A stretch of DNA of 64,000 nt from an uncultured Fodinibius sp. Its GTDB lineage: Bacteria > Bacteroidota > Rhodothermia > Balneolales > Balneolaceae. The DNA is taken from the NCBI GenBank assembly GCA_913056455.1, contig CAJXMJ010000001.1, forward strand, positions 1,426,001-1,490,000, given 5' to 3'. Below are positions 12,565-21,561 of the stretch, piece after piece. The notes under the pieces are model-generated. The model was not told the origin of the DNA and ran no database searches. It saw only the letters and a program-made list of their open reading frames with translations. Position numbers and translations under genes: made by a program. How positions within the stretch are numbered: the stretch's first letter is position 1; the number at the start of each line of letters is the position of its first letter.

Positions 12565-12882
12565 TTGCGGAAAGTCTTTCCTCTACAATGGCCTATCAGA
12601 GTCCTAAGACGGGGTCCTAAAGGAAATGAGTACAAAATTGACTACCAAAAACTGCTCAATTTGCACCCAAATTTTTATCACGCGAACCAAAAATTTTACA
12701 CAAATTTTATTAACTCAGAATCATCAAAAAAGAAGAAAAAGAAACGGAAAAGTCGGGCTGAGCAACGTAAAGTTTATCAAGAACTGCTCAACTCAGGAAA
12801 GGTAAAAAATCAAGCTGAGATTGCCCGAAAGTTCGGTTTGTCTCGTGCTTGGGTTTCTAAGGTGTTGTCATCATCAACCTAA
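12565..12882 (+). CDS. Small Lys-rich helix-turn-helix protein, copy 1
   Basis: This 105-residue protein would start at a TTG (12565) that aligns with the ATG of copy 2 at 18490. The N-terminal part (MRKVFPLQWPIRVLRRGPKG) is identical to copy 2. The middle has a run of basic residues (about 53-60). Residues ~62-102 form a helix-turn-helix (QRKVYQELLNSGKVKNQAEI, then ARKFGLSRAWVSKVL) like those of Hin/resolvase-type or transposase DNA-binding domains. It begins 3 bases after the hairpin repeat. Compared with copy 2 it lacks about 13 bases just before the start, including the ATG region, so it may be poorly expressed or decaying. Function is unknown; DNA binding is inferred from the HTH alone. 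Confidence 0.65.
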   Translation: MRKVFPLQWPIRVLRRGPKGNEYKIDYQKLLNLHPNFYHANQKFYTNFINSESSKKKKKKRKSRAEQRKVYQELLNSGKVKNQAEIARKFGLSRAWVSKVLSSST

Positions 12883-13123: not shown

Positions 13124-13426
13124 TTAGATATATTTCTCTCCTCGTACTACTTCCGCATCTTGTACATACACGATGACCGCATAGTGCTCAAAAAGATTTT
13201 CCGCAATATATTCTACTATGGCATCTGCCACTTCCTTACTGACCAAACTTTGAATACGGGTATCGGGGCCTTCCCACTCGCTGGCTCGCACCCCTCGTGA
13301 TCCTTTCCCGGTAGCCTGAGTCAATGTATATCCTTTGGCCCCCAGCTCTTGTACTTTGCGAAGTAGTCGATCTTCCAATATTCGTTCTGTAACAATTGTT
13401 ACAAGCTTAAGAGTCGTCGTTTTCAT
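13124..13426 (-). CDS. sbtB: PII-like bicarbonate-transport regulator SbtB
   Basis: This 100-residue protein follows the PII-like fold: LKLVTIVTERILEDRLLRKV at the start, a T-loop region ATGKGSRGVRASEWEGPDTR, and YAVIVYVQDAEVVRGEKY at the end. It matches SbtB, which binds adenine nucleotides (including cAMP in cyanobacteria) and controls the bicarbonate transporter SbtA. The partner gene sbtA lies 55 bases upstream on the same strand, which strongly supports the call. The protein ends shortly after VRGEKYI and lacks the C-terminal Cys-containing extension found in some cyanobacterial SbtB proteins, so redox control of that type is not expected. Confidence 0.88.
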   Translation of the reverse strand: MKTTTLKLVTIVTERILEDRLLRKVQELGAKGYTLTQATGKGSRGVRASEWEGPDTRIQSLVSKEVADAIVEYIAENLFEHYAVIVYVQDAEVVRGEKYI

Positions 13427-13481
13427 AACAGTGTTGATTTAGAAAATGATTGTTTAAAGTGCAATATAAATATTTAGCCCA

Positions 13482-14444
13482 TTACATTATCCACTCGGCG
13501 AAAGCATAATAAAGCGGTATCCCAAGGGTGATATTAAAGGGAAATGTTATCCCCAACGAAGCCGTCAAATAAAAAGTGGGATTAGCCTCGGGTAATGCAA
13601 TGCGAACGGCTGCGGGGGCAGCAATATAAGAGGCACTTGATACCATAGCCCCAAGAACAGCACTACCTGCTATTGAAAGTCCTACCAATCCGCCAAGCCA
13701 TACAGCGAGTAATCCATGAAAGATTGGAACCAGAATTCCAAAGCCGATTAAGAATCCCCCCACTTCTTTAAGTCCCTCCAGTCGACGAGCCGTTATAACA
13801 CCCATCTCGAGCAAAAATAATCCCAATGCTCCTTTAAATCCCGCCTCAAAAAATGGAGCAATAGGTTCGAACTCCGTTGGCCCCGCGATCCATCCGATAA
13901 TTAATCCTCCTGCCAACAATAAAATGCTTCGGCCGGCAAGTACTTCATGAAGCGCCTCTTGCCAAGAACCGGCTCGCTTTTCGCGCGTAAATGCGATCAT
14001 CAATCCTACCACAATTGCCGGAACTTCCAAAATTGCTACAAGGGCCGGCATAAATCCCTCTGACATCCGTCCGGTCATCGTACCAAAAGCTATAGCCACA
14101 ATAAATGTTACCGCCGATACCGAGCCATAATGGGCTGCAATGGCGGAAGCATTAATTCGGTCAAACTTACCCAAGCGTCGCAAAACGTTATATGCAATAA
14201 TAGGCGTCAGTATGCCTAAAAACAATGTGATCAGAGCCGGGCCGATAAATTCGCTGATAGGGGTCTGGTTTAATTCTACTCCCCCTTTCAAACCAATAGC
14301 CAACAGTAAATAAATGGCAAGTCCGTTATACAGGGGTTCAGGTAATTTCAAGTCACTGCGTACCAGTGAAGCGATTACTCCCAAAACAAACATGAGAATA
14401 ATGGGAGAAAGTAAGTTAGACGCCAGCGTTATAATGTGCTCCAT
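13482..14444 (-). CDS. sbtA: Sodium-dependent bicarbonate transporter SbtA
   Basis: This 320-residue membrane protein has about ten hydrophobic segments arranged as two inverted halves. Typical SbtA features are visible: LLSPIILMFVLGVIASLVRS at the N-terminus, LAIGLKGGVELNQTP near 48-62, HYGSVSAVTFIVA near 106-118, and GAMVSSASYIAAPAAVRIAL near 265-284. The family imports HCO3- with Na+. A PII-like gene follows directly (sbtB), as in cyanobacteria, and a divergent LysR gene of CbbR type lies at 15002. In a probable heterotroph the bicarbonate would feed carboxylases rather than Rubisco; that is inference. Confidence 0.9.
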   Translation of the reverse strand: MEHIITLASNLLSPIILMFVLGVIASLVRSDLKLPEPLYNGLAIYLLLAIGLKGGVELNQTPISEFIGPALITLFLGILTPIIAYNVLRRLGKFDRINASAIAAHYGSVSAVTFIVAIAFGTMTGRMSEGFMPALVAILEVPAIVVGLMIAFTREKRAGSWQEALHEVLAGRSILLLAGGLIIGWIAGPTEFEPIAPFFEAGFKGALGLFLLEMGVITARRLEGLKEVGGFLIGFGILVPIFHGLLAVWLGGLVGLSIAGSAVLGAMVSSASYIAAPAAVRIALPEANPTFYLTASLGITFPFNITLGIPLYYAFAEWIM

Positions 14445-16510: not shown

Positions 16511-16954
16511 ATGAAAACAATACGCCTTATAATATCGTCAATACTTTTACTTTTTGCTGTTCAATCGATGGCTCAAGCACAATCAACAGATATTACAGAA
16601 ACGTTTAAGAAACACTTCAACAAAACTGTTCAACAGGTTGAGGAAACAGAAAGTGCAGATCAAAAACGAATACTTCTTAATGAATCATTTGCCAAAATGC
16701 TCGAAGCTGTTGACCGTATCGAATCACGGGCCAATTTATCCAAAGATGAAATAGCCCAATTAAACTCTTTTGAAAATGGGATACTAGAAAAAAAGAATGA
16801 GTTAAACGGCTCAGACGGATTTGATAAGGTTGCAGACGAAGACCTTGATGACTTCTCAGAATACTCTCAAGATTTCATGGAACAGGCTGATAAGACCTTA
16901 ACCATTGGTCTTACGACTGCCCTTTTGATTGTTATCATACTTCTGTTGCTATAA
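16511..16954 (+). CDS. Exported protein with C-terminal membrane anchor
   Basis: This 147-residue protein has a signal peptide (IISSILLLFAVQSMAQAQ; likely cleavage after AQA). The mature part is short, acidic and helical (about 25-125), with heptad-like spacing (FKKHFNKTVQQVEETESADQ). A C-terminal hydrophobic helix (LTTALLIVIILLLL) anchors it to the membrane, leaving the body in the periplasm. I do not recognise a family. It is 9 bases upstream of the C11-peptidase-like lipoprotein gene, so the two are probably one operon and may act together at the envelope. Confidence 0.7.
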   Translation: MKTIRLIISSILLLFAVQSMAQAQSTDITETFKKHFNKTVQQVEETESADQKRILLNESFAKMLEAVDRIESRANLSKDEIAQLNSFENGILEKKNELNGSDGFDKVADEDLDDFSEYSQDFMEQADKTLTIGLTTALLIVIILLLL

Positions 16955-16963
16955 TTATTTAAT

Positions 16964-18052
16964 ATGCTCCGTTCATTTTCGGTATTTAAAGTCCTTATTG
17001 GGCTGACCCTGCTAGCGGGATTTATTTTATCGGGGTGTAGTCATACTTCTGAATTATTCAGGGATGACGCTATTGATAAAAATGAAAACGTAGCCTATTC
17101 TGTAATTTATTATATTCACGCCGACGCTGACTATTTGTATCACAATACTGCCGGGAAACCGGTCCGGGCAAATCGGCAAGTACTTGATGAAGCGCTAAAA
17201 GTGGCGGAAGAAGCAGAATCGGGAGAAGTCTTTATCTTTTATCAGCGTCCGGAAAAAAAATTCTTGGGCCTGTTTCCGCGAAAAAGTAACCGCTTTTATC
17301 ACTATACAAACGGAGAGAAAACCAGCCAAGTAAATTATCGCCATTCTGATAGCAATGAAGAATTTCTGGCAACGGAAGCCAAGTTATATAATCAATACCA
17401 AACCTATTCCGAGGATGAAAAAAAACGAAATTTCTTTCTTTATTTCGGACACGAAATACCTGATGACGGAGGGAATAAATACCACCAAACATTGCCGGAT
17501 ATTGAAGTAAATATCGCAACTTTTTCTTCGGGCATTCAGAAGTTTCTGAACAAAGATAATCACTGGTATGACCTTATAGTGCTCTCAACTTGTAATAATG
17601 GGACACCCGAAATGGCAGCTGACCTTATGCCATTTTCCCATGTTATGCTTGCTTCCCCGCAAAATCTCCACCTTTCTCATATCGATTCACAGAAGTTGGA
17701 CTTACTGGAGAGCAATCCTGATGAGATCACTAATTTCCAATTAGCCAACTCGATGGCCAAACAGACCTACCAACGTCTTGAAAAAGAGATCCACACTGCG
17801 ATTACTCTTAGCGTATATGAGCTTGACGTGGTGAAAGAATACCAAAACGAACTTCGCACCTTTACTACAGCATATGATACCCTAGATCAAAAGCAATCCT
17901 TTTCGAATAACATTGATTGCAAACACGCTTCGTTTTTTGATGAGGCCACCTTCGATAAAGGAGTGAAAACATGGTACAAACCGGCAAGTTTTGGAAGAAA
18001 ATCGTACAGTTCTACTCATTCGGGCTGGGGCTGTGTACCAGTTATAGAATAA
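16964..18052 (+). CDS. C11 (clostripain/caspase-like) peptidase-type lipoprotein
   Basis: This 362-residue protein has a lipoprotein signal (lipobox LSGC, Cys at 25). Residues ~40-260 follow the caspase-hemoglobinase fold of family C11. VAYSVIYYIHADADYLYHN is the first strand, FFLYFGHEIPDDGG presents a candidate catalytic His163, and WYDLIVLSTCNNGTPEMAAD presents candidate Cys210. The 47-residue His-Cys spacing fits family C11, and the context around Cys resembles the D-x-C-x-M-G-x-x-E motif of clostripain with changes (N-N-G-T-P-E). Whether it is active, and what it cleaves, cannot be judged from sequence. A membrane-tethered envelope location is predicted. It follows the tail-anchored gene by 9 bases. 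Confidence 0.7.
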   Translation: MLRSFSVFKVLIGLTLLAGFILSGCSHTSELFRDDAIDKNENVAYSVIYYIHADADYLYHNTAGKPVRANRQVLDEALKVAEEAESGEVFIFYQRPEKKFLGLFPRKSNRFYHYTNGEKTSQVNYRHSDSNEEFLATEAKLYNQYQTYSEDEKKRNFFLYFGHEIPDDGGNKYHQTLPDIEVNIATFSSGIQKFLNKDNHWYDLIVLSTCNNGTPEMAADLMPFSHVMLASPQNLHLSHIDSQKLDLLESNPDEITNFQLANSMAKQTYQRLEKEIHTAITLSVYELDVVKEYQNELRTFTTAYDTLDQKQSFSNNIDCKHASFFDEATFDKGVKTWYKPASFGRKSYSSTHSGWGCVPVIE

Positions 18053-18489: not shown

Positions 18490-18798
18490 ATGCGGAAAGT
18501 CTTTCCCCTACAATGGCCTATCAGAGTCCTAAGACGGGGTCCTAAAGGAAATGAGTACAAAATTGACTACCTAAAACTGCTCAATTTGTACCCAAATTTT
18601 AATGATGCGAACCAAAAATTTTACACAAAAGTTGTTAACTCGGAGACTAAAAAGAAGAAGAAAAAGAAACCAAAAAGCCGGGCAGAACAACGTAAAATTT
18701 ATCAAGAGTTGCTTGATTCTGGAGAGGTCAAAAATCAAGCTGAAATTGCCCGAAAGTTTGGTGTTAGTCGGGCTTGGATATCAAAAGTACTTTCTTAA
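18490..18798 (+). CDS. Small Lys-rich helix-turn-helix protein, copy 2
   Basis: This 102-residue protein starts at an ATG (18490) that follows the hairpin repeat. It is a paralogue of the product at 12565-12882. Roughly the first 110 bases are almost unchanged (a few substitutions), while the later part, including the basic run (about 54-61) and the HTH (QRKIYQELLDSGEVKNQAEI, then ARKFGVSRAWISKVL), differs more but keeps the protein motif. The HTH resembles recombinase or transposase DNA-binding domains; no catalytic domain is present. It could be a DNA-binding accessory protein (for example excisionase-like) of the element that carries it; this is inference from position beside a tRNA-derived repeat. 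Confidence 0.72.
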   Translation: MRKVFPLQWPIRVLRRGPKGNEYKIDYLKLLNLYPNFNDANQKFYTKVVNSETKKKKKKKPKSRAEQRKIYQELLDSGEVKNQAEIARKFGVSRAWISKVLS

Positions 18799-19044: not shown

Positions 19045-21561
19045 TTACTCCTTATGTTCAATATTTCTTTGGACAATTCGCTGAACCTCCCGACCTGCCA
19101 AGGTATCAGTTTCCGTCTCGATTCCGGCCTCCTTAAATTGACGATTAAGATTCGGAGTGTTCGCCAAGTCAAAGGGGATATGGCTACCTAATTGCCAGAT
19201 TAAACTTGACAGTTTATTAGACCCCATAAATTGATCGTCAATCTTTTGTGCTAACTGATTGGTAATATCGGGAAAACCGGCTGCAAAAGACACAAAAACG
19301 GTCTCTTTTGCAGTATCCTGACGTTTGATATACGTATTCAGCTCCTCTCTGTTCATCTTGTCTACCCCGGCGATTAATCTCCATCCTTTAGCAAATCCAG
19401 GAAAATTGGTCTCTGATGGAGTAATGTTCGCCCAAAAATCCCGTTGTTTTTTTGTAATGTTTTTATGTGCTAACGAAGACCAATGTTCAATAGAACCAGG
19501 TTGGAACGTTGATATTGACTCTAAAATACGCTGCGCTTGGGCGTTTTTTTCTAAGCTTATTAAAGCCAATGCACTAAACAATTTTGTTAAATCATTTAAC
19601 GGATCCTGTTTGATTCTTGCCTCCTGCAATTGATGAAAAAATGCGGCATACCCAAATGCAGGTAACATTTCAATCCAGGCTGCCCCTCGGCGGGCGTAGA
19701 TCTCGTGAGCTTCAGTATTGTTCTGAATTTGCGAAATCAAGCTCGGGAGTTGATTCCAGCTTGGGGATAGATACTCGAGGACAAATCGGTAAAAGAGTTG
19801 AACTTCTGGATTTTCTTCGTGCTGAATAGCGCTATTTAGATCGCTTCGCATTTGCTCGTAGGCCTTCTTTAAAGAGAGCGTATCAGCAGTATTCTGTAAA
19901 TCACCGGTAAGTATATGGACGTATGGGTCAGAATGATCAAAATAAGGAGCCGCAAAGGTTGAATCTAACTGAGAGGCCCGTTCAAACCACTTATTGGCAT
20001 CCCATAGTTGTTTAAGCTGCCAATTGTCATGGGCGTTATAATATATTTTTAACCCCTTAAGATAGGCTTCATATGCTTTCACATTACGGGTCCCAATAGC
20101 GAACATTTGCTTTCGTTGTTCTTCATCAAGGTATATATCCAATGTTGATACAATCTGCTTGGCAATGTCCAGCTGGACTTTAAAGACTGAGTCCGTGCTG
20201 GCATTATACGTGTCAGACCAGATGTGACTACCATCTTTAGCACGTATCAGCTGAGCCGTGATCCGCATTTGGTTATTTACTCTGCGCACTGATCCCTCCA
20301 CAAGATGAGTTACATTCAGGCTATCAGCAATTTGGGTCGCCGGTAGCTTCGTATCCCTGAATAAAAAAGTGGAAGATCGCGCCGGTACGCGCAGTTCGGA
20401 TATGTGGGCCAGACTGTTAAGAATTTCTGCGGTTAGCCCGTCAGAAAACCATTGCTGGTCGCCTTTTGGCGAGATATCCTCAAAGGGCAGTACGGCGACC
20501 GACGTTTCCGTTGTTTTTTGAGGAGCTGCTTCGTAAATCTGGTTTGCATTTCCCTCGATAAGCCACCAGCCGACAAACAATATCAATGTCAGTACTGCAA
20601 TGACTAAAAGACTACTCTTACCACCAAATTTGTTCCCAAAACCAAAATTGGGTCCTGTAATACTCAACGTAGTTGAACTGCTGCTGGTATTTTGCGCTGC
20701 GGCCTCACTCTCAGTTTGAGCTTGTGAAGACTGCTTCGAAAGCTTGGCTGATAAATCTCGTATATTTTCCAATTGCTTCTTCGCTTCTGTCGCACTTTCA
20801 AGGCGATCCTTAGGCGCTTTCGCCAACAGCTGGTCAAAGATTTGGATAAGCTCTTCCGGTGCATCTGGCAGATACGTCTTTAGGGGAGTAGGCTCTTCGT
20901 TCGCAATAGAATATGTAATCGCCGCTAGGTGCTCCCCCTGGAAAGGTTTGTTACTGGTAAGCATTTCATAGAGAACAATGCCCAAGGAAAAGATGTCCGA
21001 CCGATGATCGACCTGTTGGCCTCTAATCTGCTCCGGTGACATATAAGCAAGGGTACCAACCATGTCACCTGTTTTAGTGATATCACGGTCCTGCTTGAGT
21101 TTGGCAAGCCCGAAGTCCATCACTTTGATATGCCCATCCTCATCAATCATAATGTTTTCGGGTTTGATGTCCCGATGAATAATATTATTCTGGTGGGCTT
21201 TAGCAAGCGCGTTTGCAATCTGTGTGCCATAGTCCAGGGCACTTTTCAGACTCATTTCGCCAGCGTCAACTTTCGCCCGAAGGGTTTCTCCATTGATGTA
21301 TTCCATCGAAATAAACTGCCGATCTTCATACTCATCCACACTGTATATTGTGCAGATATTGGGATGCTTTAGGGCGGCCGCGGACTTAGCCTCACGAATA
21401 AAGCGCTGGCGGTCTTTCTCAGTAGGCGTCAGCGAATCAGGCAAAAATTTCAGCGCCACGGTGCGGTCGAGCTTAGTGTCCTGAGCTTTGTAAACCACGC
21501 CCATTCCACCTTCGCCGAGTTTTTCAAGAATTTTATAATGTAATACTGTTTGGCCAATCAT
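19045..21561 (-). CDS. Transmembrane Ser/Thr kinase with TolB-like and TPR-type sensor region
   Basis: This 838-residue protein has a PknB-type kinase domain at 1-270 with intact motifs: glycine loop GEGGMGVVYKA (16-26), Lys38 in VALKFLP, HRDIKPEN (129-136) and DFG (149-151), with MSPEQIRG after the activation loop. A Ser/Thr/Gln-rich linker leads to one membrane helix (about 317-336). The extracytoplasmic half starts with a FlgO/TolB-like domain (SVAVLPFEDISPKGDQQWFS, about 352-475) and continues with TPR-like helices (about 480-740). It probably senses an envelope signal and phosphorylates cytoplasmic targets. It is transcribed together with the downstream-oriented ABM and RsbU-like genes or adjacent to them (26 bases from the ABM gene), forming a signalling block. 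Confidence 0.9.
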   Translation of the reverse strand: MIGQTVLHYKILEKLGEGGMGVVYKAQDTKLDRTVALKFLPDSLTPTEKDRQRFIREAKSAAALKHPNICTIYSVDEYEDRQFISMEYINGETLRAKVDAGEMSLKSALDYGTQIANALAKAHQNNIIHRDIKPENIMIDEDGHIKVMDFGLAKLKQDRDITKTGDMVGTLAYMSPEQIRGQQVDHRSDIFSLGIVLYEMLTSNKPFQGEHLAAITYSIANEEPTPLKTYLPDAPEELIQIFDQLLAKAPKDRLESATEAKKQLENIRDLSAKLSKQSSQAQTESEAAAQNTSSSSTTLSITGPNFGFGNKFGGKSSLLVIAVLTLILFVGWWLIEGNANQIYEAAPQKTTETSVAVLPFEDISPKGDQQWFSDGLTAEILNSLAHISELRVPARSSTFLFRDTKLPATQIADSLNVTHLVEGSVRRVNNQMRITAQLIRAKDGSHIWSDTYNASTDSVFKVQLDIAKQIVSTLDIYLDEEQRKQMFAIGTRNVKAYEAYLKGLKIYYNAHDNWQLKQLWDANKWFERASQLDSTFAAPYFDHSDPYVHILTGDLQNTADTLSLKKAYEQMRSDLNSAIQHEENPEVQLFYRFVLEYLSPSWNQLPSLISQIQNNTEAHEIYARRGAAWIEMLPAFGYAAFFHQLQEARIKQDPLNDLTKLFSALALISLEKNAQAQRILESISTFQPGSIEHWSSLAHKNITKKQRDFWANITPSETNFPGFAKGWRLIAGVDKMNREELNTYIKRQDTAKETVFVSFAAGFPDITNQLAQKIDDQFMGSNKLSSLIWQLGSHIPFDLANTPNLNRQFKEAGIETETDTLAGREVQRIVQRNIEHKE

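Follow-up and report, generated by a model that had tools for sequence, protein, structure and literature searches.

The GPI transamidase is a caspase-like enzyme of clan CD whose client carries a hydrophobic tail flush with its C-terminus, and the PA2778/PA2779 pair of proteobacteria combines a cysteine peptidase lipoprotein with a small exported protein bearing a C-terminal membrane segment. The C11 peptidases include iotapain (6nag/6n9j), clostripain (9cip) and the Parabacteroides merdae enzyme 3uws, which we take to be PmC11. In the excerpted text of the PmC11 study (PMC4850288) the catalytic dyad is given as His133 and Cys179, and Asp177, located two residues before the cysteine, is the primary S1 residue and is conserved throughout C11. 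The excerpted text of a study on Bacteroides and Phocaeicola (PMC9308784) describes fragipain, a C11 protease whose arrival at the cell surface has been demonstrated, which cuts after Arg (in a QTR site), sheds many proteins from the surface and is needed for the activation of an enterotoxin, as well as doripains, which are C11 proteases with SpII lipoprotein sites; no dedicated tail-anchored partner gene is mentioned for either in that excerpt.

We analyzed a pair of genes, termed A and B here, located in a 64,000-nucleotide stretch (the window) of the 3.28 Mb genome of an uncultured Fodinibius sp. of the Balneolaceae. The two genes lie on the same strand (+), and the ORF coordinates checked in the window place 9 bases between them (Table 1). 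In a scan of public genomes, the nearest named relatives of the window B are Balneolaceae and Balneolales assemblies with 65% identity. The immediate neighbors of the pair in the window, as identified by a Pfam scan, are a LysR gene, an SbtA transporter and a protein kinase. The last of these is a Ser/Thr kinase with a long C-terminal extension, which is convergent to A-B (19045-21561). The transporter (Pfam: Sbt_1, E 1.7e-113) adjoins a small ORF that presumably resembles the PII-type SbtB, and the two (13124-14444) could possibly constitute an inorganic-carbon uptake module. A 298-nt direct repeat with 86% identity (12566-12863 and 18491-18788), each copy with a small HTH-like ORF, flanks a 5.9 kb segment containing A-B, the LysR gene and the SbtA bicarbonate transporter. 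This HTH-like ORF has no Pfam match and just these two copies genome-wide at E<=1e-5.

Table 1. Positions of the A-B features in the window, with the loci carrying the 31-nt upstream element in the last row
Feature	Position	Strand	Basis
Gene A, 147-aa exported protein (predicted), helical domain and C-terminal hydrophobic segment	16511..16954	+	ORF, alignment, model
Gene B, 362-aa predicted lipoprotein, divergent C11/clostripain-like peptidase (putative)	16964..18052	+	ORF, alignment, model, fold match
A residues 1-22, signal-peptide-like N-terminus (cleavage point by eye)	16511..16576	+	sequence, alignment
A residues 98-100 (LNG), end of predicted helix 3, judged distant from membrane	16802..16810	+	model, alignment
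A residues 124-126 (EQA), directly before hydrophobic end; candidate recognition/cleavage site	16880..16888	+	model, alignment
A hydrophobic C-terminus	16901..16951	+	sequence, alignment
B Cys25 of lipobox	17036..17038	+	Cys aligned in 67/68
B His163, predicted catalytic	17450..17452	+	68/68; follows model strand 156-161
B Ser208 (Cys minus 2), position of C11 S1 Asp	17585..17587	+	alignment; PmC11 Asp177 (PMC4850288, excerpt)
B Cys210, predicted nucleophile	17591..17593	+	68/68; end of model strand 204-210; hhalign to C11 Cys
B C-terminal tail, conserved Cys319 and HSGWGC357, putative disulfide	17918..18034	+	alignment
31-nt element	L139, L194-L197 (G431:C6, ~9-77 kb), L107, L112, L118-L120, L124-L127, L130, L133, L140		

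Structural modeling of B with AlphaFold, using 19 homologues, yielded a model with a pLDDT of 81 and a pTM of 0.82. A Foldseek search with this model recovered nine matches at E<=0.001, comprising eight C11/clostripain entries and 5dyn, which is titled 'B. fragilis cysteine protease'. In VIA-align comparisons the model scored highest with iotapain (Z 21.4 over 281 residues, 3.7 A), followed by clostripain (Z 19.8), SAVED-CHAT (10.8) and caspase-7 (8.8), but TM-scores normalized by B reached only 0.43 to 0.48 for the six full-length C11 matches. The top C11 structures align over model residues 41-362: both the caspase-like core, which the first-pass annotation had left to be looked for, and the C11 C-terminal domain are present in the model. 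Thus, the predicted overall fold of B is that of iotapain, clostripain and the P. merdae enzyme. In sequence searches the window B has no match at E<=10 either to Pfam, including Peptidase_C11 (PF03415), or to NCBIfam; among its homologs, 10 of 19 aligned B proteins match Peptidase_C11 at E<=1, and four B-family loci exceed its cut-off of 25.8 bits (L149, 32.8; L151, 29.9; and narrowly L152, 25.9, and L153, 26). An hhalign comparison of the B family with five C11 proteins gave a modest match (probability 58%, 102 columns), in which the two cysteines are aligned. The four matches from a PDB sequence profile search with B were dismissed as chance (best E 0.13). A 466-residue C11-type protein with a D-S-C motif, encoded at locus L150 (1153-2550, - strand), matches Peptidase_C11 and, weakly, the B profile, and is a possible bridge between the C11 and B groups.

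A multiple alignment of 68 B proteins from several phyla showed His163 and Cys210 to be invariant (68/68), at a distance of 47 residues in the window B as against 46 in PmC11 going by the excerpt; the dyad that the first-pass annotation had read from the single protein is conserved in every aligned member of the family. B also shares with the C11 peptidases an [A/G]-D motif after the first strand, recognized by eye. The altered cysteine motif noted in the same annotation is likewise borne out: B has S-T-C where C11 enzymes have D-x-C, and the residue two positions before the cysteine is Ser in 64, Ala in 3 and Gly in 1 of the 68 proteins and Asp in none. Given the loss of the S1 Asp throughout the family, an Arg/Lys specificity is unlikely, which sets B apart from fragipain as well. 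The residue after the histidine is Glu in 67 of the 68, in contrast to Gly134 in the excerpted account of PmC11 (PMC4850288). Lys or Arg reaches 41% in the best column of the loop comprising residues 165-200, and 68% at position 201; with no well-conserved Lys/Arg between His163 and the Cys210 strand, and hence no clear conserved activation site as in C11, the C11-style activation by self-cleavage may be missing. Cys319 occurs in 66 and Cys357 in 64 of the 68 proteins, the remainder being alignment gaps, and these residues could form a disulfide in the C-terminal tail. In light of the changed S1 residue, the His-Glu sequence, the lack of a Pfam match for the window B and the modest hhalign result, we designate B a divergent C11-like enzyme, whose specificity is probably changed, rather than a standard C11 peptidase. 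The absence of the S1 Asp, along with His-Glu in place of the His-Gly of the PmC11 excerpt, could also be read as B having kept the fold while serving as a binding protein or as another kind of enzyme; against this, both dyad residues are retained without exception across several phyla, and we regard such a role as very improbable.

The N-terminus of B is a predicted signal peptide with a predicted lipobox (LSG-Cys25), whose cysteine is aligned in 67 of 68 B proteins; the exception, L084, is truncated by a contig edge. The first-pass annotation had considered a lipid-anchored C11 peptidase with a membrane partner to be non-standard. The reading of B as an envelope C11-like peptidase with a genuine partner holds, while lipid anchoring as such is not new in C11, given the SpII sites of doripains and the surface location of fragipain described in the excerpted text of PMC9308784. 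Fragipain, itself an envelope C11-type protease, would by analogy be the closest functional precedent for B, from which B differs in having a near-obligate partner gene.

The AlphaFold model of A, built from a 49-sequence alignment (pLDDT 82), comprises a signal segment followed by four helices, a linker and a terminal hydrophobic helix. Residues 23-130 are acidic, with 26 Asp/Glu versus 13 Lys/Arg. These features, together with the 9-base gap, agree with the earlier description of the upstream gene product as short, acidic and helical. The hydrophobic C-terminus reaches the final residue, and since the last 15 residues are uncharged in 60 of 64 homologs it resembles an anchor or a processing signal that leaves no tail in the cytoplasm; both the signal peptide and the membrane anchoring of A are predictions. 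Five residues (L98, G100, L112, Q125 and A126) are invariant in all 64 aligned A proteins. The conserved residues sit near both ends of the predicted bundle, a pattern that would fit a binding partner no less than a substrate. The conservation of the B dyad (68/68), of the lipobox cysteine (67/68) and of Gln125-Ala126 in A (64/64) is not attributable to chance.

A could not be unified with a known family: a Foldseek search with its model gave no match at E<=0.001, only helical bundles and receptors lying below that threshold, and Pfam/NCBIfam searches with the 49-member alignment gave no convincing family but scattered weak matches. NagJ_C was the commonest of these, in 19 of 49 members with E down to 0.00012, and MscK matched 11 of the 49 (E down to 0.00046); all were taken as helical noise. 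The window A and B match neither of the NCBIfam models for PA2778/PA2779 (NF033920, C39_PA2778_fam, and NF033919, PA2779_fam) at E<=10, the window A matching just two other NCBIfam families at that threshold. PA2779_fam is also not among the best 25 of 65 families for the 49-member A alignment, and it has no match in the window's genome or in the control genomes. Given that C39 is a different peptidase family and that the B fold is C11-like, not C39, homology between the two systems was rejected and PA2778/PA2779 is regarded as a functional parallel only. Searches of the open-access literature yielded nothing useful on PA2778/PA2779 among the matches listed and, for such a protease-partner pair, no paper among the matches listed, some of which concern Bacteroidales toxins.

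Comparative genomics shows that A and B are tightly linked. A profile search detected B in 20 of 58 close-set genomes, including that of the window, and A in 21 of them. Twenty B loci were fetched in addition to that of the window, and an adjacent A was called at 18 of them; in the remaining pair of loci A is found directly upstream (G052) or on another contig (G005). The public-genome scan yielded 67 B loci in assemblies titled as Balneolota groups, Ignavibacteria, Calditrichaeota, Zixibacteria, KSB1, Krumholzibacteriota, Aminicenantes, Fibrobacteria and others; 63 of the 67 have A upstream on the same strand, and in the remaining four (L080, L084, L090 and L122) ~0-305 bases of contig precede B. 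An ORF-filtered search had found 56 pairs among 65 loci, with A-B gaps of -26 to 455 bases, and an unfiltered six-frame search added seven (L086, L087, L110, L115, L136, L137 and L143); the contig edge truncates A in L087, L115 and L116, and a B fragment at a contig edge (G013:C78) was left out of the locus count. A survey of 395 genomes of the phylum found each gene in 35, the two together in 34 and at least one of them in 36 (hypergeometric P ~8e-47, a value that ignores shared ancestry). The single A-only genome is G339; in the B-only genome, G099, the match is weak and concerns a different C11 protein. These genomes contain 37 B places, and at 34 of them A lies no more than 600 bases upstream, the exceptions being 1) G005, with the genes on different contigs; 2) G129, with 1062 bases and an intervening ORF; and 3) G099. 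These counts are not independent because many of the genomes are related; many loci come from related or near-identical metagenome assemblies (e.g. L086/L087 and L088/L089), and such assemblies predominate outside the cultured Balneolota. The order is constant, with A upstream of B in every pair found. Among viral contigs, four pattern matches to close relatives of B were obtained, none of which was confirmed. Thus, co-occurrence elsewhere, which the first-pass annotation had named as a check on its pairing, is found at 63 of 67 loci and in 34 of 36 genomes.

The genes around the pair point to a stress context in part of the family. In 94 fetched loci, partly from the same genomes, relatives of YtxH (13), an AraC-type regulator (14), OmpA/Gly-zipper proteins (14), cupins (8) and fatty-acid desaturases (6) occur in the stretch. 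In the 58 close genomes, 4 of the 25 A loci have YtxH no farther than 6 kb away versus ~0.2 expected (from 124 hits in 199.6 Mb), and a Pfam scan showed CsbD, dodecin, DUF5670, DUF4398, OmpA and M48 as single neighbors at other loci. No YtxH-type gene is present among the immediate neighbors of the window's own pair, for which a stress link would be drawn solely through orthology.

Of 28 loci outside the Balneolota, 8 carry a directional 31-nt element (consensus GTAGTTCCTTTTTCATCCCTTTGCCCGATTG) in the 400 nt that precede A, with zero occurrences on the reverse strand or in shuffles; the denominator was corrected from 30 loci in respect of L115 and L116, which had been scanned over the whole locus, and L122, which has no A. 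The element PWM was built partly from the loci scanned, and a later scan excluded each locus's own sites. In several phyla the element is mostly located ~70-200 nt before start codons and clustered on one strand, and the genes behind it include CsbD, YtxH, DUF5670, KaiC, MlaE, GH94 and M48; in the same non-Balneolota loci as A it also precedes other genes, including stress genes. One Ignavibacteriales genome has 20 sites on a single strand over ~67 kb that include A-B along with genes for KaiC, a PAS histidine kinase, a LuxR-type regulator, MlaE, GH94, YtxH, CsbD and DUF5670. Among 296 genomes of the phylum, 11 contain the element, and for these the reversed-pattern control gave zero; it is independent of the pair, given that some of the genomes possessing it (G263 and G304) show no A or B. 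Neither the Balneolota loci nor the genome of the window has it, and G228, from the window's family, has a single match with 3 mismatches. A looser 19-nt pattern is clearly above its control in most of 14 non-Balneolota genomes (57 vs 10 in G431) but barely so elsewhere (35 vs 23 in G436; 12 vs 8 in the window's genome, G000). An Rfam search of five loci, covering part of the element-rich island, gave three sub-threshold hits and no family, and a text search of the open-access literature for the element's letters and gene set found no paper. In 57 upstream regions of A, sigma-54 and the Bacteroidota -7 and -10 motifs did not exceed shuffles, and GTAAC occurred 13 times versus 11.9 in shuffles. 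A loose GG-N10-GC pattern (22 versus 13.3, reached by 0 of 100 shuffles) was set aside as too unspecific. A 25-nt motif upstream of A in five Balneolota loci (L024 and L077 being the same place), used as its own seed, had few matches elsewhere (11 hits, against 2 in shuffles) and was also dropped.

The stress genes near some loci and the upstream element shared with them outside the Balneolota raise the alternative that A and B are merely co-inherited parts of a stress operon, whose products do not act on each other. Yet the neighbors change from locus to locus while A-B stays constant, and we consider simple co-inheritance quite improbable.

The exceptions to strict pairing are asymmetric. 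Copies of A without a neighboring B are present in G030, G049, G005 and G013; a further copy, in G048, reaches the edge of its contig. Two genomes have an open A directly before a damaged B, which lacks residues ~68-329 in frame in G212 and the first ~170 residues in G021; each of these genomes carries another full B. At locus L202 (4200-4529) the remnant B keeps its signal and tail while the catalytic part is gone in frame, with an open A adjacent. The orphan copies of A, and its persistence beside a dead B, favor A as a client, which could be served by a B encoded elsewhere in the cell. An inhibitor or immunity-type partner restraining B until needed would account for A lying upstream in every pair and for the lack of any B without A in the 395 genomes other than the weak, different C11 match of G099, but such a partner would hardly be kept next to inactivated B copies, and it is chiefly by this indirect argument that we prefer a client. 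The Pfam-scanned neighbors, moreover, include stress and envelope genes, with no competition genes standing out. We accordingly judge an inhibitor to be improbable, and the toxin/inhibitor-like pair suggested in the first-pass annotation is not favored by the data, while the proteolytic switch that it also suggested is possible.

A could also function as an activator or docking platform, by which B is kept at the membrane or turned on, with other envelope proteins as the substrates of B. Such a role would fit the near-obligate presence of A, the conserved R53, L98 and G100, which were judged to be distant from the membrane, and the loop of B, in which the missing well-conserved Lys/Arg suggests that self-cleavage of the kind described in the excerpt on PmC11 (PMC4850288) may be lacking. 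It is less easily reconciled with A being kept beside wrecked B copies and with the extra A copies that have no neighboring B; hence, we view it as unlikely, though the most serious of the alternatives.

We therefore tentatively favor, at slightly less than even odds, the proposal that B is a lipid-anchored, catalytically intact C11-like peptidase of the envelope, with A as a dedicated partner anchored in the membrane and most likely serving as its client. Tethered by its lipid, B would act in the cell envelope, where A, exported and held in the membrane by its tail, could come into contact with it. B might then act on A, probably by cutting near the invariant Gln-Ala at the membrane edge, and the cut would release or trim the exported helical domain of A under envelope or general stress, a role that in the window's own group we infer from its relatives. 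In a more specific and improbable version of this proposal, B would be a caspase-fold sorting enzyme, which reads the 'EQA - short spacer - hydrophobic tail' of A, cuts at Gln-Ala and frees or transfers A. Its mode of operation would resemble that of the GPI transamidase or of exosortase, although the enzyme would be of the C11 type, the client essentially a single one and the setting envelope stress. The analogy to the GPI transamidase lies in the combination of a caspase-like enzyme with a client possessing a C-terminal hydrophobic tail; that system differs in being eukaryotic, and its transfer to a lipid is without sign for A-B.

The novelty lies not in the lipid anchoring of a C11 enzyme but in a partner that is near-obligate, an S1 residue that has changed and a distribution across phyla. 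The pair would represent a conserved module of a putative protease and its partner across Balneolota, Ignavibacteria, Calditrichaeota, Zixibacteria and other groups, and would add to the C11-like peptidases a branch with altered specificity. It would offer a two-gene system suited to probing the proteolytic control of envelope stress, and the common upstream 31-nt element would make a multi-phylum stress regulon testable. If the sorting reading were true, B would represent a new class of bacterial protein-sorting enzyme.
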